Shown here: positions 41,483 to 60,451 of the stretch, one piece after another
Layout: each line of letters opens with the position of its first letter
Position numbering within the stretch: position 1 is the first letter of the stretch
Source of the DNA: Subtercola sp.
Lineage (GTDB): Bacteria > Actinomycetota > Actinomycetes > Actinomycetales > Microbacteriaceae
Direction: 5' to 3'
Assembly: GCA_025463765.1 (NCBI GenBank)
Contig: JAODBC010000044.1
Coordinates: forward strand, 1-64,000
Length of the DNA stretch: 64,000 nucleotides
Notes under the pieces: generated by a model
What the model was told of the DNA's origin: nothing
What the model saw: only the letters and a program-made list of their open reading frames with translations
Databases searched by the model: none
Made by a program: the position numbers and the translations under genes

Positions 41483-41490
41483 AGTATCCT
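41483..41490. promoter_or_regulatory. AGTRYACT-type site 1 (AGTATCCT)
   Basis: Variant of the 8-bp palindrome repeated through 41-60 kb, 44 bp ahead of the SnoaL-like gene, flanked by GAAG and GAATTA. Confidence 0.35.
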
Positions 41491-41533
41491 GAATTACGAG
41501 CAGTTGGATGGCGGGGGAAACGGAGCGATGCAC

Positions 41534-41959
41534 ATGAACGATAGAGACGAGATCTCCAATCTGATGACGCGGTACGCCGAGCTGTACGACTCCGGGCAGC
41601 ACGAGGCATACGCGCAGCTCTTTGTGCACGGGCGCATAGTCGGGCCCGGAGGAGAGGTGCGCGCGACGCCCGCAGAGATTCTCGAGTATCATGCGAATCA
41701 CTCGATCAGCTATGACGACGGAACGCCCCGCACGGCCCACAACATCTCGAATGTCTTCATCGAGGTCGATGAGGGCGGCGAGACGGCACGGGCCCGCTGC
41801 TATTTCACTGTGGTGCAAGAGGCGCCGGGCTTTGCGTTGCAGGTCATCTCGGCGGGGCAGTATCACGACGATCTGATCAAGGTAGACGGTGCATGGTTCT
41901 TCGAAGAGCGCCGCGCAACCATGCGTTTCGCGGGTGACATGCACGCCCACATTCGCTGA
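41534..41959 (+). CDS. SnoaL/NTF2-like small-pocket protein
   Basis: A 141-residue alpha+beta barrel protein (MNDRDEISNLMTRYAELYDSG start, HNISNVFIEV and ARCYFTVVQ strands, and a late WFFEERR). Such proteins act as isomerases, hydratases or dehydratases, or only bind ligands, for example ketosteroid-isomerase-like or limonene-epoxide-hydrolase-like folds. No catalytic set can be assigned. The ATG at 41534 is chosen because GGAG lies 8 bp upstream; two earlier ATGs are possible. Convergent with the flavoprotein reductase gene. Confidence 0.75.
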   Translation: MNDRDEISNLMTRYAELYDSGQHEAYAQLFVHGRIVGPGGEVRATPAEILEYHANHSISYDDGTPRTAHNISNVFIEVDEGGETARARCYFTVVQEAPGFALQVISAGQYHDDLIKVDGAWFFEERRATMRFAGDMHAHIR

Positions 41960-42071
41960 CACGAAGGTGCACCGGCGCGCCGAGCGCGGCTTCGACGCCG
42001 AGCAGGTCGAACGACTCCAGTGAGACGTCGTGGCCGCCGACCAGCCCGACCGCGTGCGGCGGCCTTCTCAC
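41877..42071 (-). other. possible small ORF or gene remnant
   Basis: A 64-codon frame starts at GTG (42071) overlapping the reductase stop by GTGA. Its first 40 residues (VGLVGGHDVSLESFDLLGVE in the middle) look protein-like with GC-rich third positions. It then runs antisense into the SnoaL gene. I recognise no family. It may be the remnant of a gene once coupled to the reductase, such as a partner protein, but it has no cysteine cluster that would suggest a ferredoxin. Confidence 0.2.
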
Positions 42072-43327
42072 ACCAGCTCAGCGGCTATGGCTTTCAGGGT
42101 GCGCGATGTGTCGCCGGCGAGTTCGGGCGGAATGTTCGCGCCTCGTTTGAGCGCGGCGCGCACGGCCATGAAATCGGCGGGGTGATTCACGAAGTCGCCC
42201 GCGATGATGCGACCGTCGCGGTAATAGACGATCGAGAGCTTTCGATCGCCGGGGGAGGTACGGGTCACCACCTCGTCGAAGCCCGTCGATATGCCCGCCA
42301 TCTGCAGTTTCAGTGCGCCCTGATTCGACCAGAACCAGGGCACGATGCGGTACGGCGTCGGGCGACCGCAAACGGTCTCGGCGGCGTTGGCTGCCTGCTC
42401 GACGGCGTTGTTCACACTCTCGAGCCGAATGCGCTCTGACTGCTGGTCGCCCACGGTGTACGGGGGCAGACTGGCGCAGTCCCCGATGACGATGGTGCGA
42501 CCATCGGATGCGAGCGAGTGCTCGTCGACAACAATTCCGTTGCCGGTCTGCAGGTGCAGAATGTCTGCCAGCGCGATACGAGGCAGCACGCCGATGCCGA
42601 TCAGCACGATTTCGGCGGCGACGACCTCTCCCGATGCGAGTTGCACACCGCTCACGACTCCGTCTGCGGTGCCTACGAGGCGGCTGAGCTTCGCGTCCAC
42701 TCTGATGTCAAGGCCATGAACGGAGTGTTCGTGGAGAAAGAAGTCGGAGGTCGTTTCGCCGACAGCGCGACCCATGAGCCGGGGTGCGGCCTCGAGCACG
42801 CACACGCGCTTGCCGAGCGACTGGCAGCTCACCGCGGCCTCGAGTCCGATGAATCCGCCCCCGATGACGACGACATTCTCGGCGCCGCGCAAACGCGCGG
42901 CGAGCGCATAGGCGTCGTCGGCATCGCGCAGGTAGACGACGCCGTCGAGGTCGGCCCCCTCGATCGGCAAAGGGCGGGGGGCGGCTCCCACCGCCAAGGC
43001 CAGTGTTTCGAATGGAAACGTTCGACCCGATTCGGCGACGGCGAAACCGCCCGTCGACGACCGCACGATATCGACGATCCGCTCGCCCAGCACGAGGTCG
43101 ATGTCGTGAGACTGGTAGTAGTCGGCACTCCGCAGCACGAGCGAGTCGGCGGTGGCGGAACCGTCGAGAAACGACTTCGAGAGTGGTGGCCGGTGGTACG
43201 GCACGTGTTTCTCTGCGCCGAGCAGGGTGATCGGCAACGAATATCCGCGATCCCGGAGGGCACTCGCCAACTCGACTCCGGCGTGAGAGGCACCGACGAT
43301 GAGAGTACCGGCGGAGGAGCTACTCAT
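42068..43327 (-). CDS. FAD/NAD(P)H ferredoxin (rubredoxin) reductase-type flavoprotein
   Basis: A 419-residue pyridine nucleotide-disulphide oxidoreductase of the putidaredoxin/rubredoxin reductase group: FAD motif near the N-terminus (LIVGASHAGVELA), HVPYHRPPLSK, NADH motif VVIGGGFIGLEAA and TIVIGDCA. Members pass electrons from NAD(P)H to a ferredoxin that serves a P450 or ring oxygenase. No ferredoxin, P450 or Rieske gene is visible in the window, so its partner must lie elsewhere. Divergent from the LLM gene, with a shared AGTACACT site between. Confidence 0.85.
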   Translation of the reverse strand: MSSSSAGTLIVGASHAGVELASALRDRGYSLPITLLGAEKHVPYHRPPLSKSFLDGSATADSLVLRSADYYQSHDIDLVLGERIVDIVRSSTGGFAVAESGRTFPFETLALAVGAAPRPLPIEGADLDGVVYLRDADDAYALAARLRGAENVVVIGGGFIGLEAAVSCQSLGKRVCVLEAAPRLMGRAVGETTSDFFLHEHSVHGLDIRVDAKLSRLVGTADGVVSGVQLASGEVVAAEIVLIGIGVLPRIALADILHLQTGNGIVVDEHSLASDGRTIVIGDCASLPPYTVGDQQSERIRLESVNNAVEQAANAAETVCGRPTPYRIVPWFWSNQGALKLQMAGISTGFDEVVTRTSPGDRKLSIVYYRDGRIIAGDFVNHPADFMAVRAALKRGANIPPELAGDTSRTLKAIAAELV

Positions 43328-43368
43328 GCGCAGAGTCTATATTGTTAATCGGCCGCAAAGAGCGCTAA

Positions 43369-43376
43369 AGTACACT
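43369..43376. promoter_or_regulatory. AGTRYACT-type site 2 (AGTACACT)
   Basis: Lies in the 145-bp divergent gap between the flavoprotein reductase and the LLM oxidoreductase; flanks are CTAA and CAATAG. Confidence 0.45.
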
Positions 43377-43472
43377 CAATAGCTACATCGCCGCAAAGAA
43401 AGTCGCGCACATAGAGGTGCCGAAAATCCGGCGAGTGGATCGGAGACGTGCTGTGTTCGAGTCGCTGCGCTG

Positions 43473-44495
43473 ATGTTCTACGGAGACCGTATCCAAGAGA
43501 CGGCGGATGCTCGGCAGATACTCGACCATGCCCGAAGCGTGGAGGCTGCCGGCATGGCGACGATGTGGTCGTCAGAGAGCGCGCGAGACCCGTATTTGGC
43601 GTTGGCGCTCGCGACGAGCGTCACCGAGCACGTCAAATTGGGCACCGGAATAGCGGTCGCCTACGGGCGGCCGCCCTACGCGACCGCGCAGGCGGCCTGG
43701 CACCTCCAGCAGCTGTCGGGGGGACGGTTTCAGCTCGGGCTGGCGACCCAGGTGCGTGCGCACATCGAGCGCAGATACGGCATGCCGTGGCCAGGCGGCG
43801 TTGGGGCGTTCCGGGAATACATCCTGTGCTGCCGGGCGATCTGGAACCATTGGCAGTTCGGTACGAGCCCCGATTTCGAAGGCGAGCACTACCGCTTCAC
43901 GCTCAGCAATCCCGAGTTCCGCCCGGCACCGTTGCCCGGTGTCGAGTACGAGATACCCCTCTGGGTCGCCGGAGTCGGCCCGCGCATGGTGGAGTTGGCG
44001 GGTGAGTTGGGGCAGGGGCTGCACGTGCACGCGTTCCATACTCCGTCGTACCTGTCTGAGGTGCTGTTGCCGGCGGCGCACCGCGGCAGGCGAATGGCCG
44101 GTCGGCCAGAGCAGATCGACGCAACGTGCCCTGTATTCGCCGGCATTGTGCACGACGGTGCCGAGGAGTCGGTGCTGCGCGAGAACGTTCGTCAGCAGAT
44201 CGCTTTCTACGCCTCGACACCTGCCTACGTCGCCGTGCTCGAGCACGAAGGCTACGCGGGCATTCACGAACCGGCGCGACAACTCGCACGCGAGAAACGC
44301 TGGCACGAACTGGCGGGCCTGGTCGATGACTCGCTGGTCGACCGATTCGCGATCTTCGATACTCCACGCGAACTCGCTTTGCGCCTGCGGGCACGGTACG
44401 ACGGTCTCCTTACCGAGGTCGGGCTGTATCGCGGAGGCGACCGGTTCGCGTCGCCCGGCGAACTCGCGGAGTTCGTCGGGCTATTGGGAGCCTGA
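43473..44495 (+). CDS. LLM-class flavin/F420-dependent oxidoreductase
   Basis: A 340-residue luciferase-like TIM-barrel enzyme. TSVTEHVKLGTGIAVAYGRPP, LSGGRFQLGLATQVRAHIERRYGMPW and AGVGPRMVELAG match the actinobacterial subfamily usually annotated as F420-dependent. It could reduce or oxygenate a pathway intermediate, for example a C=C bond. No ribosome site is seen before the ATG at 43473 and the N-terminus seems a few residues short, so the true start is uncertain. Convergent with the acyl-CoA dehydrogenase operon. Confidence 0.8.
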   Translation: MFYGDRIQETADARQILDHARSVEAAGMATMWSSESARDPYLALALATSVTEHVKLGTGIAVAYGRPPYATAQAAWHLQQLSGGRFQLGLATQVRAHIERRYGMPWPGGVGAFREYILCCRAIWNHWQFGTSPDFEGEHYRFTLSNPEFRPAPLPGVEYEIPLWVAGVGPRMVELAGELGQGLHVHAFHTPSYLSEVLLPAAHRGRRMAGRPEQIDATCPVFAGIVHDGAEESVLRENVRQQIAFYASTPAYVAVLEHEGYAGIHEPARQLAREKRWHELAGLVDDSLVDRFAIFDTPRELALRLRARYDGLLTEVGLYRGGDRFASPGELAEFVGLLGA

Positions 44496-44532
44496 CCGGG
44501 GCGAGCGGTCGCTTCTCGCACCCGAACTGCGT

Positions 44533-44567
44533 CCGTGCCGTGCCGTGCCGTGCCGTGCGGTGCCGTG
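44533..44567. repeat. pentanucleotide tandem repeat (CCGTG)n
   Basis: Five exact CCGTG units (44533-44557), one variant CGGTG and another CCGTG fill the short gap between two convergent genes, 4 bp before the stop codon of the acyl-CoA dehydrogenase gene. It may vary in copy number between strains. Confidence 0.85.
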
Positions 44568-44570
44568 CGA

Positions 44571-45557
44571 TCAGCGCTGTTCTGGGTCGAACGAGACAGA
44601 CCAGTCCACGAGTCCTGGGATCGCAGCGTGATCGGTGGTGTTCACGACCGCCCGGGCGCTTTTCGCTACGCCACCGAGCAGTGTGCGCACCCGCTGGGCG
44701 CGCGACAGCGCTCTGCCGAGGCGCAGTTCTGCAGTGAATCCGACCCCGCCGTGAAGCTGAATCGCGTTCTCTGCGACCCACACGGAGTCTCTGCCGGCGT
44801 TGAATGCGGCCTGCAATGACGCGGTGACGCCGTCGCCGGTCTCCCAACCCTCGGTCGCCTCATCGAGAAGGGCCGACCCGACCATTGCCGCGAGACGCAT
44901 ATCCACCAGCCGATGCTGAAGCACCTGCTGGGTCGACAAGGGGGAGCCGAACTGCCGCCGCACCTGCAGATGCTCGAGAGTGCGCTGAGTGGCGAGCTGC
45001 GCCGTGACGACCGCCTCGACGGCCAGAAAGAAGCCGACTCGAGCGTCGTGGCGCGCACCGATGGCCGAACCCCCGGCGACGGGGTGCACGGCGCCCTTCG
45101 GAATGTCGACGGAGCGAACGTGGGCGCCGGCCAGCAGAAGAATGGGTTCGCGCGTCGTCTCGACGTCGGCCGAGGCGACGGTCGCGACGATTCCGCCGGG
45201 CAGACTGGCGACGATCACGTCGGCTCTTTCGTCTCCCCATAGCCGGCCCCGCCACGAACCTTCGGCGGTCTCGATCAGGTCGACCGCCACGGCGAAACCG
45301 GTCGCATCGTCGGGCAGCTCGCCCGCCTCGGTCAAGGTCGCCGCCGCGGCGAAATACGCACCGACCGAAATGTCAGCTTCCGCCCCCGCGGCGAGCTCCA
45401 CTACCAGTCGGGCGATTTCGGCGGTCGACCATTCCTCCGCCGACTCCGGCAGCGCCTCGAGCCAGCCGTCCTCGGCCAAGGCCGACCAGATCGCTTCGGC
45501 ATCGTTCCGGCGCATGAGGCTTGCTACAGCGTCTCGTTCGGTCGTCAAGTCGGTCAT
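44571..45557 (-). CDS. acyl-CoA dehydrogenase, small/partner subunit
   Basis: A 328-residue acyl-CoA dehydrogenase-fold protein without the SEPxxGSD motif. The N-terminal half is degenerate, while the C-terminal domain has VRRQFGSPLSTQQVLQHRLVDM and IQLHGGVGFTAELRLGRALS. This matches the small partner of a heteromeric dehydrogenase; the large partner is the next gene upstream (45581-46699), 23 bp away. Last gene of the operon beginning with the crotonase at 47454. Confidence 0.85.
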   Translation of the reverse strand: MTDLTTERDAVASLMRRNDAEAIWSALAEDGWLEALPESAEEWSTAEIARLVVELAAGAEADISVGAYFAAAATLTEAGELPDDATGFAVAVDLIETAEGSWRGRLWGDERADVIVASLPGGIVATVASADVETTREPILLLAGAHVRSVDIPKGAVHPVAGGSAIGARHDARVGFFLAVEAVVTAQLATQRTLEHLQVRRQFGSPLSTQQVLQHRLVDMRLAAMVGSALLDEATEGWETGDGVTASLQAAFNAGRDSVWVAENAIQLHGGVGFTAELRLGRALSRAQRVRTLLGGVAKSARAVVNTTDHAAIPGLVDWSVSFDPEQR

Positions 45558-45580
45558 GGCAGTTCCCTTTTTCTCATGAT

Positions 45581-46699
45581 TCAGACTCGAGGCAGGCCGA
45601 GCGCCCTGCGAGCCAGCACGCCTCTCAGCAGTTCATTCGCGCCACCTGAGATGGTGTAGCCCCGCGAATACACATAACTGTCGGCCCAGCGCCGCACCCA
45701 TCCGGCCGGTACGGCCTGCGGGTAGGCGGCGCCGAGATCGATTCCGAGTTGGGTGAGGCGGATGTTGATCTCCGAGAAGAGAATCTTGCCCGCACTCTCG
45801 AAGTTCTCGGGAAAGCCCGCCTTAGCGAGCACCACCAGGGCGTCGACATCGCACAACACCTCGGCCAGTCGAACCACGAGGTCGTCGGTGATCGCGTTCC
45901 CGAGGTCGTCGACCACCCGCGCCAGCCGGCGCGCATCCGCCTCCAGGCCGAGCACGAGCGCGCCGACGACTCTGCGCTCTTCGGCCAGGGTGCCCATGCT
46001 CACTCCCCAGCCACCGTCCACCTCGCCGAGCAAGGCGTCTGCACCCAGGTGCACGTCATCGAAGAAGACCTCGTTGAAGTCGGAGTCGCCGGTGAGCTCG
46101 ACGATGGGCACGACGCGGATGCCCGGAGCATCCATCGGCACCAGAAACATCGAGAGGCTCTTGTGCCGGCTGCTCTGCTCGCCCGTGCGCGCAAGCAACA
46201 GCCCCCAGCCCGCAATGTGAGCGTAGGTGTTCCAGACCTTCTGGCCGTTGATCAGCCAGCCGTCTCCGTCGGGCACCGCGCGTGTGCGCAGCGACGCCAG
46301 GTCACTGCCGGCCTCTGGCTCTGAGAAGAGCTGGGTCCAGATGGCGGTGCCGTCGCCGATGCGCGGCAGGTGGTGCTCTTTCTGCTCGTCGGTTCCATAC
46401 GCCATCACAGAGGGGGCGACCAGGTTCAGCGCGACGTCAGTGAGCGGCAGCGGCATTCCGGCCTCGCGGAGCACTCGCGTCACCGCCCGCACATCGTCGG
46501 CACCCGCGTCTTCGCCGCCCCAGCGCTCGGGCCAGTGCAGGGTCGCGAGACCCGACGCGTGCAGATCTCGCGTCCACTGAACCCACGCGTCGTGTTCCCC
46601 GGCAGAGCTCGGAGTGCGGTTTCCGCCCGGGGCGCCGATGGGCGGGGGGTGTTCGTTGCTCCACGCGACGGCGCGGGCTGTGGTCTGCTCGATCGACAT
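45581..46699 (-). CDS. acyl-CoA dehydrogenase, large subunit
   Basis: A 372-residue dehydrogenase with WPERWGGEDA, LFSEPEAGSDLASL, NGQKVWNTYAHIAGWG and the C-terminal GGANELLRGVLARRALGLP. The usual TSEIQ segment is replaced by ANELL. Its ATG overlaps the crotonase stop (TGATG). Pairs with 44571-45557; together they would introduce a double bond in a bulky acyl-CoA. Confidence 0.9.
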   Translation of the reverse strand: MSIEQTTARAVAWSNEHPPPIGAPGGNRTPSSAGEHDAWVQWTRDLHASGLATLHWPERWGGEDAGADDVRAVTRVLREAGMPLPLTDVALNLVAPSVMAYGTDEQKEHHLPRIGDGTAIWTQLFSEPEAGSDLASLRTRAVPDGDGWLINGQKVWNTYAHIAGWGLLLARTGEQSSRHKSLSMFLVPMDAPGIRVVPIVELTGDSDFNEVFFDDVHLGADALLGEVDGGWGVSMGTLAEERRVVGALVLGLEADARRLARVVDDLGNAITDDLVVRLAEVLCDVDALVVLAKAGFPENFESAGKILFSEINIRLTQLGIDLGAAYPQAVPAGWVRRWADSYVYSRGYTISGGANELLRGVLARRALGLPRV

Positions 46700-47454
46700 C
46701 AGCGCGCGTCCGCCGCGGCGAGCAGACCCTCCGCCATCGTGCGGAATCGTTCGCTGCCGATGAACTCGGATTGATAGTCAGCACACAGGTCGAAGTACGA
46801 GTCGTCCGGCCAGTCGCCGGTGCGCGACAGCCGGGCGTAGGCGGCGACGACGTCTAACGGAACGCTGCTGAGTGCCTCGACGCGGGCCAGGGCGCTGGTG
46901 AGAGCGCTGGGCTCCGAGACATCGGCGAGCCCCAGTTCGACCGAGAGTTCGGCGGTGAGCTTGGGCTGATCGGCGATGAGCGCCCACACCGAACCGCGAC
47001 GCTGCTGCTCGATGAACCACGTGCCGCCTGTCGCCGAGATGAGACCGGCGCGCGCCCAGCCCTGGCGCATCCACCCTGACGCGCCGATGAACCGAGTGTC
47101 GCAGGCAAGTGCCAGATCCATGCCGAGACCCACTGCCGGGCCGTCGACCGCCGCCACCGTGTGCATCGGCGCATCTCGCAGCGCCCTGACGATCGCCTGA
47201 ACATCGCCGTAGACGTGCGTTCGGATCTCGGTGGGTGTCATGCGAGCAGAGATGTCGGCGAACGCCTTGAGGTCACCTCCGGCGCAGAAGGCTCCCTCTC
47301 CGGTGAGCACGATGCCGTGCGCTCCCGTTGTGGCCGCCTCGCGGATGGCTTCTGCGACCTCTCGGGCTTCGTCGGGGCCGAGCGCGTTGCGGCGATCGGT
47401 CCAGCGAAGCGTGACGACTGCGGCATGGCCGACGGACTCCAGTGACACTCCCAT
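46699..47454 (-). CDS. enoyl-CoA hydratase/isomerase family
   Basis: A 251-residue crotonase: VTLRWTDRRNALGP, EGAFCAGGDLKAF and DGPAVGLGMDLAL form the CoA and oxyanion-hole elements. The loop RAGLISATGGTWFIEQQ replaces the standard Glu region, so activity is open. ATG at 47454 follows GAGGAGAGG; a start nine codons upstream lacks a site. First gene of the three-gene operon with the dehydrogenase pair, facing an AGTRYACT-type site. Confidence 0.85.
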   Translation of the reverse strand: MGVSLESVGHAAVVTLRWTDRRNALGPDEAREVAEAIREAATTGAHGIVLTGEGAFCAGGDLKAFADISARMTPTEIRTHVYGDVQAIVRALRDAPMHTVAAVDGPAVGLGMDLALACDTRFIGASGWMRQGWARAGLISATGGTWFIEQQRRGSVWALIADQPKLTAELSVELGLADVSEPSALTSALARVEALSSVPLDVVAAYARLSRTGDWPDDSYFDLCADYQSEFIGSERFRTMAEGLLAAADAR

Positions 47455-47531
47455 GTGGGCACCTCTCCTCGCCGCAACCACGCTGATTCGGCGATGAATT
47501 ACTCAGCCGCTTGAATGACGACGGCGATTAC

Positions 47532-47539: not shown

Positions 47540-47670
47540 CTAATAGCTGAGCCGCAGTGCGAGCGAGAAGATCGAACGTCTCGCTGAGCCGGCGTGGACT
47601 CCAGGTCGCCAAAGACCCGGCAGGCCCAACTGCAGCTGAACCAGTGTGGCGCGATACGAAAGGCAAGGCA

Positions 47671-48852
47671 ATGACGACAGTCGAAGATGACGTCGACCGG
47701 GATTACACCTTCACTCCCGAGGAGATCGAGTATCGTGCAGCTATTCGTGCCTTTCTGGCCGAACATCTGCCCGAGTCGTGGGTGAGCCTGTTCTCACGGC
47801 CGGATGCGGTCGAAGTGAGTAATAAGGTCACTAAAGAGCTCGCAGATGCGGGTTACCTGATTCAGCACTGGCCGAGCGAATACGGCGGTAAAGACGGCTC
47901 GATCTGGATGCAGGCCGTGGCTCAAGAAGAACTCTGGGCGCACGGCGAGCCTCGTGGCGGTCAGTACATGAACGTGAACTGGATCGGCCCGGCGATCATG
48001 CACTTCGGAACCGAAGAGCAGAAGCGACGCTACCTTCCGCCGATCATGCGCGGCGAGGTGCTCTGGGCTCAGCTCTTCAGCGAGCCGGATGCCGGGTCAG
48101 ACCTGGCAAGCCTCAGCACGAGCGCGGCGGTGCAGCCCGACGGCAGCTTCATCGTCAACGGCGCGAAGACGTGGACCTCGTACGGCCATCTGGCCGAGAC
48201 CGGGTTTCTGCTCTGCCGCACCGAGCCGGGCTCGCGCCGAAGCAAGGGACTCTCGGTGTTGATCATCGACATGAACACGCCCGGCATTGAACGTCGAGAG
48301 ATCAAGACGTCTCTGGGCACCAATCGCATTGCTGAAGAGTTCTTCACCGACGTGCACGTGCCCGCCGATGCTCTGCTGGGCGAACTCAACAACGGCTGGG
48401 CCGTGGCCATGACGGCGCTGGGATTCGAGCGCTCCGGCTCGGCACGATATGCCCGCTCGACCCGTGTACTCGGCTGGCTCGAGCGCCTGCCCGAGTCGGC
48501 GGCGCCTGAGCTGCGCACCGAGCTCGCCGAGCTGCTCGCCGAGGGGCGCGCCGCAGAGTTGGCGAACTACAACGTCGTCAGTGTGAAGGAAGAGGGGCGC
48601 ACCCCCACCTGGCAATCGTCGGAGGCCAGAATCTTCAATTCGCTCTATGAGCAGCGCGTTGCCGACTTCGGCGAGACGTTGCTGGGCCCCTATGTTCGGG
48701 TCAAGGCAGACTCGGCGCCCTCCCGGGCCGTGGCCGAGGTCGCCTCGTTGACGACCTCGCAGGCGAGCTCGGCGACGGTGACCGCAGGAACGTATGAAAT
48801 TCAATTAGGCATCATTGCTCAGCGCCGGCTGGGATTGGAGTTGGCGCGATGA
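47671..48852 (+). CDS. acyl-CoA dehydrogenase, large subunit
   Basis: A 393-residue dehydrogenase: WPSEYGGKDGS, LFSEPDAGSDLASL, NGAKTWTSYGHLAETG and a C-terminal AGTYEIQLGIIAQRRLGL. The EIQ-helix is kept although GGTS is replaced by AGTY. ATG at 47671 follows AAGGCAAGGCA; the longer frame upstream is promoter. Coupled by ATGA to a small partner, making the third such pair in the window. Confidence 0.9.
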   Translation: MTTVEDDVDRDYTFTPEEIEYRAAIRAFLAEHLPESWVSLFSRPDAVEVSNKVTKELADAGYLIQHWPSEYGGKDGSIWMQAVAQEELWAHGEPRGGQYMNVNWIGPAIMHFGTEEQKRRYLPPIMRGEVLWAQLFSEPDAGSDLASLSTSAAVQPDGSFIVNGAKTWTSYGHLAETGFLLCRTEPGSRRSKGLSVLIIDMNTPGIERREIKTSLGTNRIAEEFFTDVHVPADALLGELNNGWAVAMTALGFERSGSARYARSTRVLGWLERLPESAAPELRTELAELLAEGRAAELANYNVVSVKEEGRTPTWQSSEARIFNSLYEQRVADFGETLLGPYVRVKADSAPSRAVAEVASLTTSQASSATVTAGTYEIQLGIIAQRRLGLELAR

Positions 48853-49802
48853 AATTCGGCCTGGACGAGATCGCACAGGCGATCACTGACGAGATGTCGT
48901 CGATCGCGAGTGCGCGGCTCGCTGACATCGGGCACTTCGAGGCCCACGACGACGCGACCTGGAAGTCGCTCGCCGAATTCGGTCTGCTCACCGGCTCAGA
49001 AGACGGCATGCGTGACCTCGACGTGGCCGTCGGGTTCATGGGCGTGGCCAGAGGCGGCCTCCCGGGCCCGCTGCTCGAGGCCGAGCTGGCCGGATTCGCG
49101 GGTTCGGAACGCGCCGTGGAGCTTCTCCGTGCGGGTCGCTATGTGTCATCCGTCGCGCCGGGGCCGGCCGGCCCGGTGATCGTGGGCTGGGGTGCCGTTG
49201 CTGATCTCATCGTCGACCAGGCGACGGGCGCAACACTCGTCGACGGGTCGGCCGAGCCGGTCGACACAGCGCTGCCGATGGAGCACGGCGTCATCAGCCG
49301 GCCCGAAGGCGGCGACGATCCACTGCGCTCTCGCCGCTGGCTGCTCGGTTCCGCTCTGCTCGTAGGCCTCGGCAAGGGAGCAATCGAACTCGCCGCGAAT
49401 TATGTCAAGAGCAGGGTTCAATTCGGCCGGCCGCTTTCGTCGTTCCAGGCCGTTCAGTTTCGCCTGGCAGAGTCGGTCACCAAGCTGGATGCGGCCGAGT
49501 TGATGGTGCTCGATGCCGCACGCCGCTCAGACGCGGGAGATCCCATGGCCGAGGTAGCGGCCGCCCTCGCCTGGATCTACGCGACGGAGTCGTTGCTGCT
49601 CATCGAGAAGCACGTGCACCAGGTGTTCGGCGCCATCGGATTCACCACCGAGATGGGCGTCATCCGGTTCACCTACCAGATCTCGTGGCTGCGCACCTCG
49701 GTGGGTCGTGATGACGCGATCGATCTCGTATTGAGCTCGCGCGACCCCTCGGCCGAGGTGCCTGCATCCATCGTCTTCGACGGGTTCGCGACGGCCTCGT
49801 AG
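48849..49802 (+). CDS. acyl-CoA dehydrogenase, small/partner subunit
   Basis: A 317-residue acyl-CoA dehydrogenase-fold protein with a degenerate N-terminal half (no SEPxxGSD) and a kept C-terminal domain: SRVQFGRPLSSFQAVQFRL and HQVFGAIGFTTEMGVIRFTY. Overlaps the large-subunit stop by 4 bp. Convergent with the crotonase at 49816, 13 bp away, with no clear terminator between. Confidence 0.85.
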   Translation: MKFGLDEIAQAITDEMSSIASARLADIGHFEAHDDATWKSLAEFGLLTGSEDGMRDLDVAVGFMGVARGGLPGPLLEAELAGFAGSERAVELLRAGRYVSSVAPGPAGPVIVGWGAVADLIVDQATGATLVDGSAEPVDTALPMEHGVISRPEGGDDPLRSRRWLLGSALLVGLGKGAIELAANYVKSRVQFGRPLSSFQAVQFRLAESVTKLDAAELMVLDAARRSDAGDPMAEVAAALAWIYATESLLLIEKHVHQVFGAIGFTTEMGVIRFTYQISWLRTSVGRDDAIDLVLSSRDPSAEVPASIVFDGFATAS

Positions 49803-53253: not shown

Positions 53254-54092
53254 ATCCCAGCGACGCGCTCTCAGCGTGGGCGGATCTCGCCGGCCGAAGG
53301 GCGATCGTCATCGGTGCGGCCGGCGGAATCGGCCGCGGGGTCGCTCTAGCGCTTGCTCAGGTCGGTGTCGAATTGGCCGTGTGCGATCTCGATGCGGATG
53401 CCCTGCTGATCACCTGCACTGAGCTCGAAAGGGCCTCGGGCGCGCCCGTCGTCAGGGCGGGTGTCGATGTGCGAGACCTGGGGGCCATCGAGACGTTCTT
53501 CGATCTGCTCGCCGAGCGCGACTTCACTCCCGACATTCTCGTGAATGTTGTCGGCGGGTCGTTTCATAGCGACTTTCTCGCCACGAGGCCGAAGGGGTGG
53601 CAGGTGCTCGTCGATCTCAACCTCACCTACGTGTTGGCGTCGTCGCAGCGCGCTGCACGAGCGATGATCGAAGCGGGCCGTCAGGGCTCGATCATCAACA
53701 TCACGACCATCGAAGCTCACCGTGCCGCCCCCGGCTACGCTGTCTACGCCGGCCTCAAGTCGGCCGTCGAAGGATTCGGCCGTTCGCTGGCTGTCGAACT
53801 CGGCCCGCACGGTATTCGCGTCAACTCGATCGCCCCCGACTACGTCGTGACGCCCGGAGTGCAAGCGCTGCAGCGTGACCTCGGCCGCGACATCATCAGC
53901 GCCGAAGAGGCGGCTGCCATCGTGCCGCTCGGTCGGCTCGGCACGGTGGATGACGTCGCCGGATGCGCAATCTTTCTGGCCTCGGGACTGTCGCGCTTCG
54001 TCACGGGCAGCACGCTGCACCCCGACGGCGGCGCGCTAGTGGCAGGCCGATGGTCGCTCTCGGGCGACGAGTGGGCTCCGCGTCTGCCGTGA
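53250..54092 (+). CDS. SDR oxidoreductase with Thr at the Ser position
   Basis: A 280-residue short-chain dehydrogenase. GAAGGIG, CDLDAD and YAGLK are present. The catalytic Ser is replaced: the strand reads NITTIEAHR, so a Thr would have to serve. The NNAG motif is VNVVGG. These changes raise the chance of an altered reaction, although Thr can sometimes substitute. C-terminus VTGSTLHPDGG is standard. Last gene of the cyclase-ligase operon; GntR gene is convergent, 19 bp away. Confidence 0.85.
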   Translation: MNPSDALSAWADLAGRRAIVIGAAGGIGRGVALALAQVGVELAVCDLDADALLITCTELERASGAPVVRAGVDVRDLGAIETFFDLLAERDFTPDILVNVVGGSFHSDFLATRPKGWQVLVDLNLTYVLASSQRAARAMIEAGRQGSIINITTIEAHRAAPGYAVYAGLKSAVEGFGRSLAVELGPHGIRVNSIAPDYVVTPGVQALQRDLGRDIISAEEAAAIVPLGRLGTVDDVAGCAIFLASGLSRFVTGSTLHPDGGALVAGRWSLSGDEWAPRLP

Positions 54093-54111
54093 ACTCTGCG
54101 AGCGGCGCGCT

Positions 54112-54876
54112 TCACTGCTCCGCGCCTCGTTGCTCGGCGCCTCGCTGTTCGGCGCCTCGCTGTTCAGTGAGTCCCTGCCCCTCCGGTGCATTCTCGCGGT
54201 CTCGGTAATAGTGAGTCGCGGCAGAGAGATGCTTGCGCATGCGATGCTGCGCCAGAGCGGGGTCGCCGGCGATGATGGCGTCGACAACGCGATCATGGGC
54301 CTCGAACACCTCGTCGGCTTGTTCGTCGCGGTATTCGAGGTGCTGAGCTCGTTCGTACGCGAGGTTCGCCATCGTCTCGACGAACAGCAGGAGCGCGGGG
54401 TTGTTGCTGAGGCGCGCGATAAGAATGTGCAACTCGTGCGAGCGGCCTTCGCGCACCCCGTTCAGACCGGCGGCCCGCTCGGCGGCGAGCGTCGTTCGCA
54501 ACAACGCTGCGCTCTCGTCGGTGACGTTGGTGGCGACAATGCGTACGCAGGTCAGCTCGAGCGTGCTGCGCACCGCGCTGAGGTCGAGCGTCGTCACGTT
54601 CGCGTAATCCAGCCACAAGGTGGTCGGCCGTTGCACCGAGCGAAGCTCGGGTGAACTCACTACGAGCCCGCCTCGCGGACCGCGCTTCATCTCCGCGGCG
54701 CCGTGGTGCTCGATGATCCGCACCGCCTCACGGAACACGGCTCGGCTCACCTGATAGCGAGCGACGAGCTCCGCCTCGGAGCCGAGGTATTCGCCCTGCA
54801 CCCAACCGTGATCCATGACCACCGCTTCGAGTTCGCGGGCAAGCTCCTCGGCCCTTTTCGGAGCGGAGGCAGTCAT
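54112..54876 (-). CDS. GntR family regulator (FCD subfamily)
   Basis: A 254-residue regulator with an N-terminal winged HTH (LVARYQVSRAVFREAVRIIEHHG then KRGPRGGLVV) and a helical FCD domain with spaced His (SHELHILIARLSNNP, AQHRMRKHLSA). FadR/FCD regulators bind short palindromes with GT and AC half-sites, which matches the AGTRYACT sites spread over 41-60 kb, including those in front of this gene. It is therefore the best candidate regulator of module D. The C-terminus is odd: RGAEQ is repeated three times, encoded by a 15-bp DNA repeat. Confidence 0.9.
   Translation of the reverse strand: MTASAPKRAEELARELEAVVMDHGWVQGEYLGSEAELVARYQVSRAVFREAVRIIEHHGAAEMKRGPRGGLVVSSPELRSVQRPTTLWLDYANVTTLDLSAVRSTLELTCVRIVATNVTDESAALLRTTLAAERAAGLNGVREGRSHELHILIARLSNNPALLLFVETMANLAYERAQHLEYRDEQADEVFEAHDRVVDAIIAGDPALAQHRMRKHLSAATHYYRDRENAPEGQGLTEQRGAEQRGAEQRGAEQ
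54113..54165. repeat. 15-bp tandem repeat at the 3' end of the GntR gene
   Basis: Three imperfect 15-bp units (54113-54127, 54128-54142, 54143-54157, consensus CGCTGTTCGGCGCCT) and part of a fourth encode RGAEQ repeats at the C-terminus. A 15-bp unit keeps frame, so copy number could change without inactivating the protein. Confidence 0.8.
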
Positions 54877-55149: not shown

Positions 55150-55187
55150 AAATGCAGGTGAATGGTCGATGGAGACGGAGAGAGACA

Positions 55188-55979
55188 ATGGATGCGGGCG
55201 CTGTTCTGCTTCGTCGAGAAGGGCCAGTGGCGTGGCTGATGCTCAACCGTCCCAACGAGGGTAATTCGATCGACCTCGGCGTGGCATCGGCGTTTGCCGA
55301 CGCCGCGCGCGAGCTCGACGAAGATCCGACGATTCGCATTCTCATGATCGGCTCGACCGGCAAGCTCTTCTGCGGTGGGGGAGACGTCGCGGCCGTGGCC
55401 GCCGCGGAGGATCCGGCGGGTTACATCGGTGAGCTTGCGAGAGAGTTTCACCGAGGGCTGCACATCCTCGCGCAGTCCCATCTGATCACGGTCGGAGTCG
55501 TACAGGGAACTGCCGCCGGTGGCGGCCTCGGCCTGGTGCTGAACTGCGACTACGTCATCGCCAGTTCGAAGGCCCGCTTTCTGAGCGCCTATTCGGGAAT
55601 CGGGCTCACTCCGGACTCGGGCGTCTCGTACCTTCTGCCACGCGTAATCGGCCCCCGTCGCGCCGTCGAACTCACCGTGGCCGGGCGAGTGCTCGACGCC
55701 GAGACGGCGAGAGAGTGGGGGATCGTCAATGAGGTGTGCGAACCAGAAGAACTGGATTCCGCTGCTGCAGCCTTCGCAGCCCGGCTCGCAGGCTCGCCCG
55801 GCCAGTCGTTCGGCGAGACGAAGCGGATGCTCGTCTCCAGCTACGCGCACTCCTACATCGACCACCTCGACATCGAAGCAGACAACATCGAACGGTTTGC
55901 CGCGCGAACCGACTCGCGCGAACTGATCGACGCATTTGCGGCTCAGCGCGCCCCGAGCGGCCAGCGAGCCGCCAAATGA
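55188..55979 (+). CDS. enoyl-CoA hydratase/isomerase family
   Basis: A 263-residue crotonase: LMLNRPNEGNSIDL, GKLFCGGGDVAAVAA, QGTAAGGGLGLVLNCDYVIAS and GIGLTPDSGVSYLLPR with Asp in the active loop. ATG at 55188 follows GGAGAGAGACA; an ATG 36 bp upstream overlaps the operator region and is not preferred. First gene of a four-gene run with an SDR, a thiolase and a thioesterase. Confidence 0.9.
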   Translation: MDAGAVLLRREGPVAWLMLNRPNEGNSIDLGVASAFADAARELDEDPTIRILMIGSTGKLFCGGGDVAAVAAAEDPAGYIGELAREFHRGLHILAQSHLITVGVVQGTAAGGGLGLVLNCDYVIASSKARFLSAYSGIGLTPDSGVSYLLPRVIGPRRAVELTVAGRVLDAETAREWGIVNEVCEPEELDSAAAAFAARLAGSPGQSFGETKRMLVSSYAHSYIDHLDIEADNIERFAARTDSRELIDAFAAQRAPSGQRAAK

Positions 55980-56821
55980 ATGCGCCCACCGACCGGTCAC
56001 TGGCCGGCAAGACGATCGTGATGTCGGGTGGCAGCCGCGGTATCGGGCTGGCGATCGCGCTGCGGGCGGCCCGCGACGGCGCGAACATCGTCTTGCTCGC
56101 CAAGACCACCGTGCCTGATTCCCGGCTGCAGGGCACCATCTACAGCGCCGCGGAACAGATAGAGAAAGAAGGCGGTACCGCGCTGCCCGTCGTGGGCGAT
56201 GTGCGGTCAGACGACAGCATCGCCGAGGTCGTCGCGGCTGCCGTGAATAGGTTCGGTGCCATCGACATCTGCGTGAACAATGCGAGCGCTCTCGACCTGT
56301 CGCCGACTCTCGATCTCACGGCGAAGCGGTACGACCTGATGCAAGACGTCAACACCCGAGGCACGTTCATGCTCACGCGGGCATGCCTTCCTTTTCTGCT
56401 CAACGCACCGAATCCGCATGTTCTGACACTGAGCCCTCCGCTGAATCTCAGCCCGGCCTGGCTGGGTGCTTTTCCCGGCTATATGTTGTCGAAGTTCGGC
56501 ATGACCCTCGCGACCCTGGGGTTTGCGGCCGAGTTCGCCGCAGGGGGCATTTCGGCCAACACGCTGTGGCCGCGCACGACGATCGCGACCGATGCGGTGG
56601 GCAATCTACTGGGCGGCGACGACGCTCGCGCGCACTCGCGTACTCCTGAGATCATGGCTGACGCGGCTCATCGAGTTCTCACTTCGCAGTCGATGGCGCG
56701 TTCAGGGGAGACCCTCATCGATGAGGATGTGTTGCGTGAATACGGCCAAACGGACTTCGAACGCTATCGCGCGGCGCCGAACGATACAGAGCTGCGGATC
56801 GACCTCTTTCTCGACCGTTGA
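55976..56821 (+). CDS. SDR oxidoreductase (HSDL2-like)
   Basis: A 281-residue short-chain dehydrogenase of the HSDL2 type: MSGGSRGIGLAIA, LLAKTTVPDSRLQGTIYSAA (the insert typical of this subgroup), VNNASALDL, Ser in LTLSPPLN and YMLSK. HSDL2-type enzymes are linked to fatty-acid or steroid metabolism, substrate unknown. ATGA overlap with the crotonase stop. Followed by a heptanucleotide repeat before the thiolase. Confidence 0.85.
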   Translation: MNAPTDRSLAGKTIVMSGGSRGIGLAIALRAARDGANIVLLAKTTVPDSRLQGTIYSAAEQIEKEGGTALPVVGDVRSDDSIAEVVAAAVNRFGAIDICVNNASALDLSPTLDLTAKRYDLMQDVNTRGTFMLTRACLPFLLNAPNPHVLTLSPPLNLSPAWLGAFPGYMLSKFGMTLATLGFAAEFAAGGISANTLWPRTTIATDAVGNLLGGDDARAHSRTPEIMADAAHRVLTSQSMARSGETLIDEDVLREYGQTDFERYRAAPNDTELRIDLFLDR

Positions 56822-56826
56822 CCCTC

Positions 56827-56860
56827 GAACGCTGAACGCTGAACGCTGAACGTTGAACGC
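56827..56860. repeat. 7-bp tandem repeat (GAACGCT)n before the thiolase
   Basis: GAACGCT three times, then GAACGTT and GAACGC fill the gap between the SDR stop and the thiolase ribosome site GGAG. As it lies in the leader of an operon gene, unit gain or loss could change SDR-thiolase spacing. Confidence 0.8.
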
Positions 56861-56883
56861 ATGAAACGAAATGGAGCTGCAGA

Positions 56884-58077
56884 ATGACCACTGCCGTCAT
56901 TGTCGACGCAATTCGAACCGCCTCGGGCCGGGGCAAGCCGGGAGGTGCGCTTTCGGGTACGCATCCGGTCGACCTGATGGGTACCGTGCTCGCCTCGCTG
57001 CTCGAACGCAACGGGCTCGAGTCGACCCTTATCGACGACGTCCTCATCGGTTGCGTCACTCAAGTGGGTGAACAGAGCACCAACGTCGCCCGCAACTCGG
57101 TGCTGGCAGCTGGGTTCGACGAGTCGATTCCGGCGACGACCATCGACAGGCAGTGCGGCTCGAGTCAGCAGGCGGCTCACTTCGGCGCCCAGGGCATCAT
57201 CGCCGGTGCTTACGACATCGTGATCGCCGGCGGCGTCGAGTCGATGAGCAGGCAACCGCTCGGCTCGGCATCGATCGGAAAAGACTACCTGGGCACGCGC
57301 ATCCACGCCCGATACCCTGACGGACTTGTGAACCAGGGCATCTCGGCAGAACTGATCGCCGCGAAATGGGGCTTCACCAGGGAGCAGCTCGACGAGTTCT
57401 CGGCGCTCTCCCATCAGCGCGCCGCTGCGGCCGCGACCGACGGCTTCTTCGAATCGTCGATCGTACCGATCAACGTACGATCCGCAGAAGGAACGGAGTC
57501 GCTGCACACCGTTGACGAGACGGTGCGGGCCGGCACGACGACGGCGAAACTCGGCACTCTGCTGCCCGCCTTTTACGATGAGGCGATGGCCGCCCGGTTT
57601 CCGCAGCTGAATTGGTCGGTCACCCCCGGAAACTCCTCTCCCCTCACCGACGCCGCGTCGGCGGTTCTGATCATGAGCGAAGAGAAGGCACTCCAGCTGG
57701 GGCTGACCCCGCGCGCACGCTTCCACAGTTTCACGGTGGTCGGCGACGATCCGTTGTATATGCTCACCGGCCCGATTCCGGCCACACACAAGATTCTGCA
57801 GCGTTCCGGCCTGTCGTTCTCCGATCTCGACGCCTATGAGGTCAACGAGGCGTTCGCCTCGGTTCCGTTGGCCTGGGCTCAGGAATTCGACGCCGATCCC
57901 GAGAAGCTCAACCCGCGCGGTGGGGCGATCGCGTTGGGACATGCCGTCGGTTCATCCGGTACCCGATTGCTCGGAACTCTGCTCGCCCAACTCGAGGCGA
58001 CCGGAGGCCGGTATGGGCTGCAGACCATGTGCGAAGGTGGCGGTATGGCGAATGCCCTCATCATCGAACGACTCTGA
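56884..58077 (+). CDS. acetyl-CoA C-acyltransferase (thiolase)
   Basis: A 397-residue thiolase with a full set of catalytic residues: Cys91 in DRQCGSSQQA, His353 in GHAVGSSGTR and Cys383 in MCEGGGMANA. It would cleave a 3-ketoacyl-CoA with CoA to acetyl- or propionyl-CoA plus a shortened acyl-CoA, closing the beta-oxidation cycle. It is the only conventional degradative thiolase of the window. Start ATG after GGAG. Confidence 0.95.
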   Translation: MTTAVIVDAIRTASGRGKPGGALSGTHPVDLMGTVLASLLERNGLESTLIDDVLIGCVTQVGEQSTNVARNSVLAAGFDESIPATTIDRQCGSSQQAAHFGAQGIIAGAYDIVIAGGVESMSRQPLGSASIGKDYLGTRIHARYPDGLVNQGISAELIAAKWGFTREQLDEFSALSHQRAAAAATDGFFESSIVPINVRSAEGTESLHTVDETVRAGTTTAKLGTLLPAFYDEAMAARFPQLNWSVTPGNSSPLTDAASAVLIMSEEKALQLGLTPRARFHSFTVVGDDPLYMLTGPIPATHKILQRSGLSFSDLDAYEVNEAFASVPLAWAQEFDADPEKLNPRGGAIALGHAVGSSGTRLLGTLLAQLEATGGRYGLQTMCEGGGMANALIIERL

Positions 58078-58089
58078 CCGCGGCGCGCG

Positions 58090-58983
58090 TTGACTTCTCA
58101 TGAACCGCTCTCGCGCGTTGCCGGAGGCAGAGCCGCACTCGAGGGCCAGACACCGAACGGCTTGTTCGGTGTGCGCCATGTGCGTCAGCAGAACGCTTGG
58201 CATGTCGAGATGGCGGCCGGCCCGTGGATGGCAGACCGCGACGGTGTGGTGCACCCGGGAACCTTGGGCCTGCTGCTCGACATCGGTCTCAGCATGCCCG
58301 TGCTCTACAGTCGGCCGTCGCTCGATCGAGCTCCTGTCACGGTTTGCCTCTCGCTGAGTTTCGTGCCGAACGCCGACCTGCTCGACGGGCCGCTCGTGGT
58401 GTCGTCTGAGTTGATGCACTCCGACGACGATGGTGGCCAGGGGCGCGGCGAAGCGAGAAACAATTCCGGTGCGATTGTGGCCTTCGGAAGTGTCGAATGC
58501 CAGCAGTTTCCGCTGCCTGACGGGTGGAACGTCATTCGTGAGGAGGCGGGAACGATTCCCGAGCCCGGGTTCTCACTCGATGAGATGTTCGGGCTGCCCA
58601 GCACCCGACCCGGGTCGGCAGAGCTGGTGGTGCCGAGTGCGCAGTGGTTTTCGAACCCGAGAGCGACCTTTCACGGCGGCGTGCTCGTCGCCCTTCTGGA
58701 GTACGTGGCTGCGTCGGCGTTGCCCGGCGGCGCTCGAGACTGGTGCGTGGCAACACTTCGAGTGGATTTCGTTCGTCCCGTGCTCACGGGATCGATCTTG
58801 CGGGTCGAGGCAAAACTTCTGCAGGAGGGCCGACGTCTCGGCATCGTCAGCGCCCGCGCCGTCGGTGCACAGGGCAAGCCGATGTGCTTCGCCCAGGCGT
58901 CGTACATTCGGCGGCAATCGGGCTCTCGACGAACATCTGGTTCTTCGCAGGCGGCCGCTTCGCCGAAACCGGGGGTGGCCTGA
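58090..58983 (+). CDS. double hot-dog acyl-CoA thioesterase-like protein
   Basis: A 297-residue protein with two hot-dog units. The first has HPGTLGLLLDIG (about 56-67) and the second FHGGVLVALLEY (about 197-208), the positions where PaaI-type thioesterases carry their active helix. It may release CoA from dead-end acyl-CoAs. TTG start 12 bp after the thiolase, with no strong ribosome site, so the start is uncertain. The final 20 residues are low-complexity (Ser/Arg/Gly). Confidence 0.75.
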   Translation: MTSHEPLSRVAGGRAALEGQTPNGLFGVRHVRQQNAWHVEMAAGPWMADRDGVVHPGTLGLLLDIGLSMPVLYSRPSLDRAPVTVCLSLSFVPNADLLDGPLVVSSELMHSDDDGGQGRGEARNNSGAIVAFGSVECQQFPLPDGWNVIREEAGTIPEPGFSLDEMFGLPSTRPGSAELVVPSAQWFSNPRATFHGGVLVALLEYVAASALPGGARDWCVATLRVDFVRPVLTGSILRVEAKLLQEGRRLGIVSARAVGAQGKPMCFAQASYIRRQSGSRRTSGSSQAAASPKPGVA

Positions 58984-59017
58984 GTTGCCGCAGTTCATCC
59001 TGGGCTTAGCAGCACAG

Positions 59018-59025
59018 AGTATACT
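59018..59025. promoter_or_regulatory. AGTRYACT-type site 7 (AGTATACT, perfect palindrome)
   Basis: Part of the 12-bp perfect palindrome AGAGTATACTCT (59016-59027). TATACT could double as a -10 element for the esterase gene. Confidence 0.5.
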
Positions 59026-59085
59026 CTAACCAGGGTTTCTGCGATGGCGGGCCCGCAGTGGGCAGACAGTGCCGAGGAGGTCATT

Positions 59086-60042
59086 GTGGACATTGATATT
59101 CGTGCTCGCCTAGAACCTGAGATGGTCGCGACCTACGATGCCGCGCCGCCGACCGACGTCTCGAATATCGTGGCCGCCCGCGAAGGCAGCGCACGGCTCG
59201 CAGAATCGACGAAGGCGGTGCCACCCGACCCCGCCGTGAAGCGAACCGATCACAGCATTCCCGGGCGTGGCGACGCGCCATCGGTCTGGGTGCGCGAATA
59301 CCGGGCTGTGGGGCACGACGAACCGCTTCCCGCTTTGCTCTGGATGCACGGCGGTGGCCACATCATGGGCCACATCGAGACCGATGACGTGGTGATGGAG
59401 CACATCGCCAAAGCCGTCGGCTGTGCCGTGTTCTCGGTCGACTGGCGCCGTGCGCCCGAGCATCCGTACCCCGCCGCCATCGAGGATTCGCACACCTCGG
59501 TCTTGGCGCTGTACGAGCGAGCGGCCGAATTCCGAATCGATCCCCGGCGAATCGCGGTCGGCGGAAAGAGCTCCGGCGCCGGGCTGGCCGCGGGAGTCGC
59601 CTTGCTGTTGCGTGATCGGGGGGAGTTCACGCCGCGCCTTCAGCTTCTGATCTATCCGATGCTCGATGACCGAGACGCCACCGTCTCGGCACGCTCCATC
59701 GTCGACCCGCGCCTGTGGCATCGAGATGCCAACAACACAGCGTGGCGCCATTATCTCGGCGAGGCCTATGGAACGGATGCCGTCGAAGCGTACGCCGCAC
59801 CTTCGCGGGCAGCTAATCTGTCGGGCCTCCCGCCGACGTTTCTGATCGTCGGAGAACTCGATCTGTTTCTCGACGAAGACATCGAGTACGCGCAGCGGCT
59901 GCTCCAGGCCGGTGTGCCCACAGAGCTTCATGTTTACGCCGGTGCGGTGCACGGATTCGAGACGAGACTGCCCGATTCGCCGATCGCTTTGCAGTTCGAA
60001 CGTGACCGAGACGAAGCGCTTCGGCGCGCGTTCTCTCTGTAG
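59086..60042 (+). CDS. HSL-type alpha/beta hydrolase (esterase)
   Basis: A 318-residue esterase of the hormone-sensitive-lipase group: HGGG oxyanion motif (about 88-91), nucleophile in GKSSG (Ser about 162, replacing the usual GDSAG), acid in GELDLFLDED and His in AVHGFE. The GTG start at 59086 is chosen because GGAGG lies 5 bp upstream; an ATG at 59044 adds 14 residues and has only a weak site. It could hydrolyse an ester or lactone of the pathway. Own promoter with a perfect AGTATACT site. Confidence 0.85.
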   Translation: MDIDIRARLEPEMVATYDAAPPTDVSNIVAAREGSARLAESTKAVPPDPAVKRTDHSIPGRGDAPSVWVREYRAVGHDEPLPALLWMHGGGHIMGHIETDDVVMEHIAKAVGCAVFSVDWRRAPEHPYPAAIEDSHTSVLALYERAAEFRIDPRRIAVGGKSSGAGLAAGVALLLRDRGEFTPRLQLLIYPMLDDRDATVSARSIVDPRLWHRDANNTAWRHYLGEAYGTDAVEAYAAPSRAANLSGLPPTFLIVGELDLFLDEDIEYAQRLLQAGVPTELHVYAGAVHGFETRLPDSPIALQFERDRDEALRRAFSL

Positions 60043-60451
60043 TAAGCGCAGTTCGACATTCCTCCGCATATGTACGGTCAGGGATCGGTTTGCGGTCGAC
60101 GGTTCACCTGACGTGGGCTGCCCTGCGCGATCCTGACAAGATCGATCGACATGCTTCGGCTCGTATGTAGTACACTCTTTCTGTGCACCCAGGTCGAACA
60201 CGACCTGCAGTACAGAATCGGCAAAACCCCGGTAGGTCGCGATGGTGCGGCCCGGCTCAGCGAGGAGATAGGTGTGGTTGTCAAGGCGCGTGTTCCGGAT
60301 TCTGCTGCGGCAGGGTCGGCATCGATCGTCGGCTTCATGCTCGACAGAGCCGATACTCGGAACCCCGATCGTTCCGTGCAACGCCTCACGACGCGGTGAC
60401 TCCGACTGATTCGCACTTCGTGTGCCTTCCCTGGAACGGAACTGAATAGTT
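60043..60451 (+). promoter_or_regulatory. 409-bp region upstream of second ABC importer
   Basis: No convincing gene. It holds an AGTACACT site at 60169-60176, so the transcript start should lie near 60180, leaving a leader of about 270 nt before the permease gene. Short frames in this leader have no ribosome sites and match nothing I know. No riboswitch-like fold is recognised. Confidence 0.5.
60169..60176. promoter_or_regulatory. AGTRYACT-type site 8 (AGTACACT)
   Basis: Identical octamer to site 2, flanked by ATGT and CTTTCT; it precedes the importer operon. Confidence 0.45.

Follow-up and report, generated by a model that had tools for sequence, protein, structure and literature searches.

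According to excerpts of the survey by Suvorova et al. (2015; PMC4494728), regulators of the FadR (FCD) subfamily bind palindromic operators with GT and AC half-sites, and a single site in a divergent gene pair usually serves both operons. Excerpts from work on individual members add that AlkR, an FCD regulator of Pseudomonas aeruginosa, binds a palindrome over the −10 element of alkB2 and is released by long-chain acyl-coenzyme A (acyl-CoA) (PMC12042122), and that NanR has a (GGTATA)3 repeat operator and acts in sialic acid metabolism (PMC8012715). Here we analyse a 64,000-nucleotide stretch of Subtercola sp. DNA (contig JAODBC010000044.1, positions 1 to 64,000; the window), in which eight octamers of the pattern AGTRYACT recur between 41 and 60 kb, in a part termed module D. 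Judged by sequence comparison, each octamer is very probably the core of a 16-bp operator, eight in all, for an FCD-type GntR regulator whose gene lies at 54112-54876 and which would repress a CoA-dependent catabolic regulon and an importer.

As far as the survey excerpts go, the locus resembles the FadR subfamily in joining a winged helix-turn-helix (wHTH) to an FCD domain, in its GT/AC palindromic operator and in its single sites in divergent gene pairs; the 2-nt gap is that of the GntR, HpxS, HypR, MdcY, PrpR and UxuR groups. It differs in having A instead of G or T before GT and A/T-rich outer arms, and no FadR-subfamily group with this operator is named in those excerpts (PMC4494728). With AlkR, as partly described, it shares an FCD regulator of one or more catabolic genes and a palindromic site, AlkR being released by acyl-CoA. 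However, the AlkR site, ATTGTCAGACAAT, is built on a different half-site with GT and AC 3 nt apart, AlkR was studied on one enzyme gene whereas a large regulon is predicted here, and the AlkR structure (9isw) is only a remote match to the window regulator (19% identity). NanR (6on4, 24% identity) is the nearest solved structure by both sequence and fold; the FCD-GntR fold is common to both proteins, whereas the NanR repeat operator and its metabolic role are different. The operator was not met among the titles and abstract openings matched in the literature, and spelled-out versions occurred, among the matches listed, only in papers on unrelated subjects. What were look-alike octamers become a predicted regulon with a candidate regulator, eight predicted sites in the window and further ones on another contig, and the operator matrix marks related catabolic islands in distant bacteria.

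A 16-bp palindrome conserved with a regulator family

All eight octamers lie exactly where a preliminary description had placed them, and its reading of them as GT/AC half-site operators of the FadR/FCD kind is supported: the same palindrome emerges de novo upstream of relatives of the regulator, is densest beside the regulator gene and has the known 2-nt gap. The unit had to be revised, because the 8-bp palindrome proposed as the motif is the core of a 16-bp palindrome, approximately AWWGAGTRYACTCWWT. The eight predicted operators, to which no strand is assigned, are listed with their scores against a matrix from other species:

41479..41494: operator 1, before the SnoaL-like gene if that gene starts at 41528/41534; 19.5 bits
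43365..43380: operator 2, between divergent ferredoxin reductase and LLM oxidoreductase genes; 19.2 bits
47528..47543: operator 3, between divergent enoyl-CoA hydratase (ECH)-acyl-CoA dehydrogenase pair 1 and acyl-CoA dehydrogenase pair 2; 19.1 bits
50651..50666: operator 4, between divergent enoyl-CoA hydratase and cyclase-family hydrolase, CoA ligase and short-chain dehydrogenase/reductase (SDR) genes; 19.8 bits
55023..55038: operator 5, on the GntR side of the divergent GntR/ECH-SDR-thiolase gap; 20.1 bits
55138..55153: operator 6, same gap as operator 5, ~40 bp before the likely ECH start at 55188; 16.7 bits
59014..59029: operator 7, before the hormone-sensitive lipase (HSL)-type esterase gene; 20.7 bits, the window's best
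60165..60180: operator 8, before the ATP-binding cassette (ABC) importer genes; 17.3 bits

Relatives of the regulator were collected with a query alignment of five proteins: the regulator of the window, two of its paralogues and two relatives encoded on plasmids. Scanned over genome contigs, this alignment detected 111 relatives, the best 80 of which were kept as loci; a scan of the same contigs with a single sequence found none. Five of 86 matching plasmid records were also used, bringing the total to 85 loci, near-copies included. For a cross-species set of upstream regions, 45 of the 80 loci were non-redundant, and six were dropped (five with no gene call, one too short), leaving 39. A de novo search seeded only from these 39 regions yielded ATTGAGTRYACTCAAT with a log-likelihood ratio of 91.8, compared to 30.2-37.0 for six shuffled sets, and the site was present in 22 of the 39. 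The best motif from 367 intergenic regions of the 45 non-redundant other-species loci stood at 580 (640 random seeds). When the other-species matrix, which had no input from the Subtercola genome, was scanned over the 64 kb, ranks 1-8 were exactly the eight sites (16.7-20.7 bits), rank 9 (10.4 bits) trailing by more than 6 bits. A profile from 70 other-species sites gave 13 window matches at E ≤ 5, all of them at seven of the eight sites, with 55142 missed.

Intergenic preference and conservation in related loci followed the expectation of the preliminary description. A window matrix built from seven window sites (41483 left out; threshold 12 bits) found 221 sites in 234,490 intergenic positions of the 85 loci compared to 23 in 1,462,464 coding positions, with at least one site in 75 of the loci; 100 permuted matrices gave a mean of 14.9 intergenic sites in the same loci. 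Of the 85 family loci, 62 had a site no farther than 1.83 kb from the regulator, compared to 2 of 33 centred on other FCD regulators (P 2e-11, with near-copies included); the family figure was 31 of 50 when only non-redundant loci and intergenic sites were considered. The density per kilobase of intergenic DNA fell from 2.11 sites less than 1.5 kb from the regulator to 1.08 between 1.5 and 3 kb, to 0.72-0.85 between 3 and 10 kb and to 0.41-0.53 farther out, where nearly all the data come from the five plasmid loci. In the regulator's family tree, sites occur throughout (71 of 80 loci), including Alphaproteobacteria (L104, L105, L118) and a metagenome-assembled genome of the Acidobacteriota (L103).

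The shape of the motif was read from 158 non-redundant sites, 150 of which have a gene start within 500 bp and could be oriented. These 150 were gathered with the window matrix, so their core is biased; the other-species matrix yields the same profile without that bias. The oriented profile is symmetric (A, A/T, A/T, G, A, G, T, A/G and its mirror), with the key half-site bases at 0.99 (G) and 0.97 (C) and a GT-RY-AC core whose 2-nt gap falls within the 2-3 nt of FadR-subfamily GT...AC palindromes. No conserved column was found beyond ~9 bp either side of the centre among the 150 sites, and the median distance to the next gene start was 70.5 bp. The 16-bp palindrome looks like an operator rather than a core promoter element. 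These sequence comparisons show that the sites exist as symmetric elements, nearly all of them between genes, and that their conservation follows the regulator family across genera and phyla.

A search confined to the window says less. Self-trained gene calls defined its intergenic regions, and palindromic expectation-maximization on the 12 from module D (1,992 bp) returned the reported sites as the best motif (log-likelihood ratio 29.7), a value reached by none of 100 shuffles (mean 23.2, best 29.5). Because the 17 other intergenic regions, used as controls, gave a different motif at 28.6, this result is just suggestive and, taken alone, modest evidence.

The bare octamer was rejected as the unit, given that it lacks one-mismatch enrichment in the window (24 seen, 29.0 expected; 85 of 100 shuffles reach 24) and that the strict form occurs upstream of relatives in only 8 of 80 loci. 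Exact AGTRYACT is found at 36 places in the 4.32-Mb Subtercola genome, making it rarer than its reversed control (63), and 26 of the 36 are AGTGCACT. Without that sequence 10 places remain, three of which (43369, 59018 and 60169) fall in the 18.7 kb spanned by the sites (binomial P ~1e-5, or 5e-4 with all 36); AGTATACT has a single occurrence in the genome. Allowing up to one mismatch, the flanked pattern WWNNAGTRYACTNNWW occurs at 38 places genome-wide (reversed control, 59), eight of them in the interval where 0.16 are expected, namely seven of the reported sites and 55041; the P value of ~5e-12 is after the fact, the pattern having been drawn from these very sites. Another IUPAC pattern has 12 distinct places in the genome, four inside the region. 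A raw 8-mer count over 45 upstream regions of relatives had no clear winner; the signal needs a 16-bp degenerate palindrome. A pattern with an arbitrary 3' extension gave no matches, and a profile search based on sequence alone had no hits at E ≤ 10 across the whole genome, which carries no weight, an 18-position model being powerless on 4.3 Mb.

The candidate regulator and competing explanations

The proposed repressor is a single gene of module D:

54112..54876, minus strand: GntR/FCD regulator, 254 amino acids (aa), PF07729 + PF00392

Its C-terminal, all-helical FCD domain scored 67.2 bits against PF07729 (cut-off 24.3), and its N-terminal GntR wHTH 27.1 bits against PF00392, barely above the cut-off of 27. 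The predicted model (mean pLDDT 88) shows the helices and two strands of a winged helix. The best Foldseek matches were GntR regulators such as NanR, with TM-scores of only 0.4-0.6, and a sequence search of solved structures gave 10 distant matches, led by NanR at E 8e-21. All 27 aligned members, without exception, have His150, His194 and His216, which, with equivalence judged by eye, correspond to the FCD metal site given for HypR (His142/186/208) and TM0439 (His134/174/196) in excerpts of PMC6608401. Among the 26 open reading frames (ORFs) scanned between 36185 and 63978 (Pfam, E 0.001), this protein alone has a DNA-binding domain.

The claim that the sites lie upstream of transcription units held for almost all of them, which are intergenic; 41483, however, lies within the longest ORF at 41477-41959. 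Judging from a paralogue of 33% identity and from a stretch resembling a Shine-Dalgarno sequence, the SnoaL-like gene likely starts at 41528/41534, which would put the site ~41 bp upstream, and the moved start is supported by a SnoaL-like paralogue on a second contig of the same genome (C41), which has a strong site (L038:1332) ~50 bp before its called start. The two sites said to precede the GntR gene are indeed there, at 55023 and 55138 in the divergent gap. Counting gaps of at least 20 bp, with three gene starts set by hand, we found sites in four of four divergent and three of six codirectional gaps of module D. This makes 7 of 10 promoter-type gaps, compared to 0 of 18 elsewhere in the window (P 1e-4), and convergent gaps had none (0 of 3 in module D, 0 of 4 in the whole window).

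If the regulator acts as its family suggests, it would sit as a dimer on each palindrome, blocking the promoters that drive its own gene, the importer and the catabolic operons. Once an acid or CoA thioester derived from the substrate entered the FCD pocket, the regulator would release the DNA, and the regulon genes would switch on together. The regulon would extend to C41, where it would take in a substrate-binding protein, an alcohol dehydrogenase and the genes for an IclR protein and a Baeyer-Villiger-like monooxygenase.

Among the alternatives, the one that survives best, though we consider it unlikely, is that the operators belong to, or are shared with, another regulator: the two C41 paralogues, 63% and 42% identical to the window regulator, or the C41 IclR protein. 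Four sites scoring 14.1-20.5 bits lie on C41 no more than ~7 kb from the 63% paralogue, one of them with the IclR gene behind it, and the Rhodococcus opacus cluster likewise has an IclR gene. Yet the motif accompanies the FCD family over 80 loci, and 22 of 39 regions directly before the FCD gene contain it; the wHTH region is so strongly conserved among the paralogues that sharing is likelier than replacement; the 63% identical regulator probably reads the same sites. The idea of one regulator at 54112-54876 is supported by the family-linked sites and the sole DNA-binding ORF scanned, but the paralogues may share the sites.

There is very little to recommend the view that ordinary promoters explain the octamers, which would then be just −10 boxes (TATACT, TACACT) that occur wherever there is a promoter and are not linked to any regulator. 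The core does contain these hexamers, and an FCD operator may well sit on a −10 element, as that of AlkR does. Nonetheless, the flanks are symmetric, and the 150 oriented sites, collected with the window matrix, have nothing conserved outside ~9 bp, including any −10/−35 pair or fixed spacing to a −35. The 18 promoter-type gaps in the rest of the window carry no sites, a consensus scan of 41000-60600 found no sigma-70-like promoter, and the sites follow the regulator family from genome to genome. Chance, that is A+T-rich octamers picked by eye from A+T-rich intergenic DNA, might explain an octamer not enriched at one mismatch and a window-only search that beats its shuffles only narrowly, but is scarcely credible when a matrix from other species puts exactly these eight on top.

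Several observations nevertheless weigh against operators for the FCD regulator. Within the window, the count of 7 of 10 gaps includes 41483 with its hand-moved start (the called start gives 6 of 10), three of the 10 promoter-type gaps of module D have no site, and none was found at 12 bits for the monooxygenase gene at 36185, the electron-transfer flavoprotein genes or the SMP-30 gene. On C41, nothing more than a weak site (9.7-10.6 bits; L037:19793) precedes the 63% paralogue, and the surrounding DNA examined for the 42% paralogue has none at 12 bits. In the wider family, sites are missing from 17 of the 39 upstream regions and from 9 of the 80 loci, including a Frankia clade, and two permuted matrices gave 146 and 185 intergenic matches, presumably as near-identical permutations. 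The base before GT is A in 85% of sites (A 0.85, G 0.13), whereas FadR-subfamily sites commonly, though not by definition, have a TKGT/ACMA box. Finally, SMP-30, SnoaL, ferredoxin reductase, the esterase, the first permease and others have no close homologue in 89 loci (the 85 of relatives and four from the Subtercola genome; E 1e-15 over half the length).

Relatives with one or two units per chain

A regulator gene call was available for 71 of the 80 relatives (nine had none), and in 43 of these the protein has at least 400 aa (for example, L076, L084, L086 and L100). Two recognisable recognition helices are present in 35 of the 43 long regulators, which corresponds to two wHTH-FCD units per chain. 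In the non-redundant loci there are 22 double-unit and 18 single-unit regulators with nearly identical operator matrices, and 19 of 22 and 17 of 18 loci, respectively, have a site. Site pairs less than 250 bp apart number 7 among 54 sites for the doubles and 19 among 68 for the singles. On balance, we favour the view that these proteins form an undescribed FCD family whose own 16-bp operator guards CoA-dependent catabolic islands in Actinomycetota, Alphaproteobacteria and Acidobacteriota, and that covalent pseudo-dimers make up over half of the members found and still read the same single palindrome as the one-unit proteins. If so, degradation islands not yet known could be sought with the operator, and the two-unit regulators would offer a natural way to learn whether a single palindrome is read by a GntR 'dimer' made of one chain, and how this affects control.

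In 36 genomes of the same genus and family, the best-scoring match to the regulator had 30% identity, and same-family genomes other than the regulator's own had no match passing E 1e-40. Because close matches are missing there, the islands look acquired. One of the two matches among the 33 control loci, a 17-bit site at L009:1448-1463, lies beside a 29% identical FCD regulator in a same-genus genome. In the Frankia clade without the operator (L086, L087, L089 and L113), the recognition region is nearly unchanged in two aligned members, and the operator of this clade may differ. Within the window, a weak site at 55037-55052 (9.8 bits, window matrix) overlaps operator 5 with its centre shifted by 14 bp, possibly a sign of cooperative binding at the regulator's own promoter, and the inner 12 bp of operator 7 form a perfect palindrome.

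Genes beside the predicted operators and a second locus

The genes next to the eight sites are as follows:

41528..41959, plus strand: SnoaL-like protein (PF13577; start proposed)
42068..43327, minus strand: ferredoxin-type NAD(P)H reductase (PF07992, PF14759)
43473..44495, plus strand: F420-type LLM oxidoreductase (TIGR03617, 329 bits; cut-off 278)
44571..47481, minus strand: enoyl-CoA hydratase and large/small acyl-CoA dehydrogenase pair, three genes (Pfam)
47557..49802, plus strand: second large/small acyl-CoA dehydrogenase pair (Pfam; first gene may start later, at 47644)
49816..50595, minus strand: enoyl-CoA hydratase (PF00378; longest ORF to 50661)
50767..54092, plus strand: cyclase-family hydrolase (PF04199), acyl-CoA ligase and SDR (Pfam)
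55188..58983, plus strand: enoyl-CoA hydratase, SDR, thiolase and thioesterase-like protein (Pfam)
59044..60042, plus strand: HSL-type alpha/beta esterase (PF07859; GTG start at 59086 possible)
60452..63978, plus strand: branched-chain-type ABC importer, permeases and ATPases (PF02653, PF00005)

NCBIfam matches for the module-D enzymes were mostly below cut-off. The gene set fits a CoA-dependent, beta-oxidation-like breakdown of a cyclic compound after activation, as is generally known of such pathways. The relatives on plasmids of R. opacus 1CP and Streptomyces have similar kinds of gene around them. Of the 89 loci, 56 have a match to the first large acyl-CoA dehydrogenase, 27 to the CoA ligase and 9 to the thiolase; gene content is thus less conserved than operator and regulator. 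The preliminary description had tied these genes into a single pathway, which co-regulation and gene content support in part, but relatives' neighbours are of the same kinds and mostly not close homologues.

On C41, the first of the four sites stands before the SnoaL-like gene, and sites 2 and 3 lie between a metallo-beta-lactamase-fold gene and a gene for a periplasmic substrate-binding protein. The fourth, a strong site at L038:7107, lies between an alcohol dehydrogenase gene and the IclR gene, followed by a gene for a flavin-containing monooxygenase (FMO)/Baeyer-Villiger-like enzyme; the IclR gene behind this operator would make a regulator cascade possible. None of the 26 window ORFs scanned encodes a substrate-binding protein, and the importer permeases and ATPases lie in the window, whereas the substrate-binding protein gene with its upstream operators is on C41 (L038:3780-4865). 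The regulon may therefore join the two halves of one importer.

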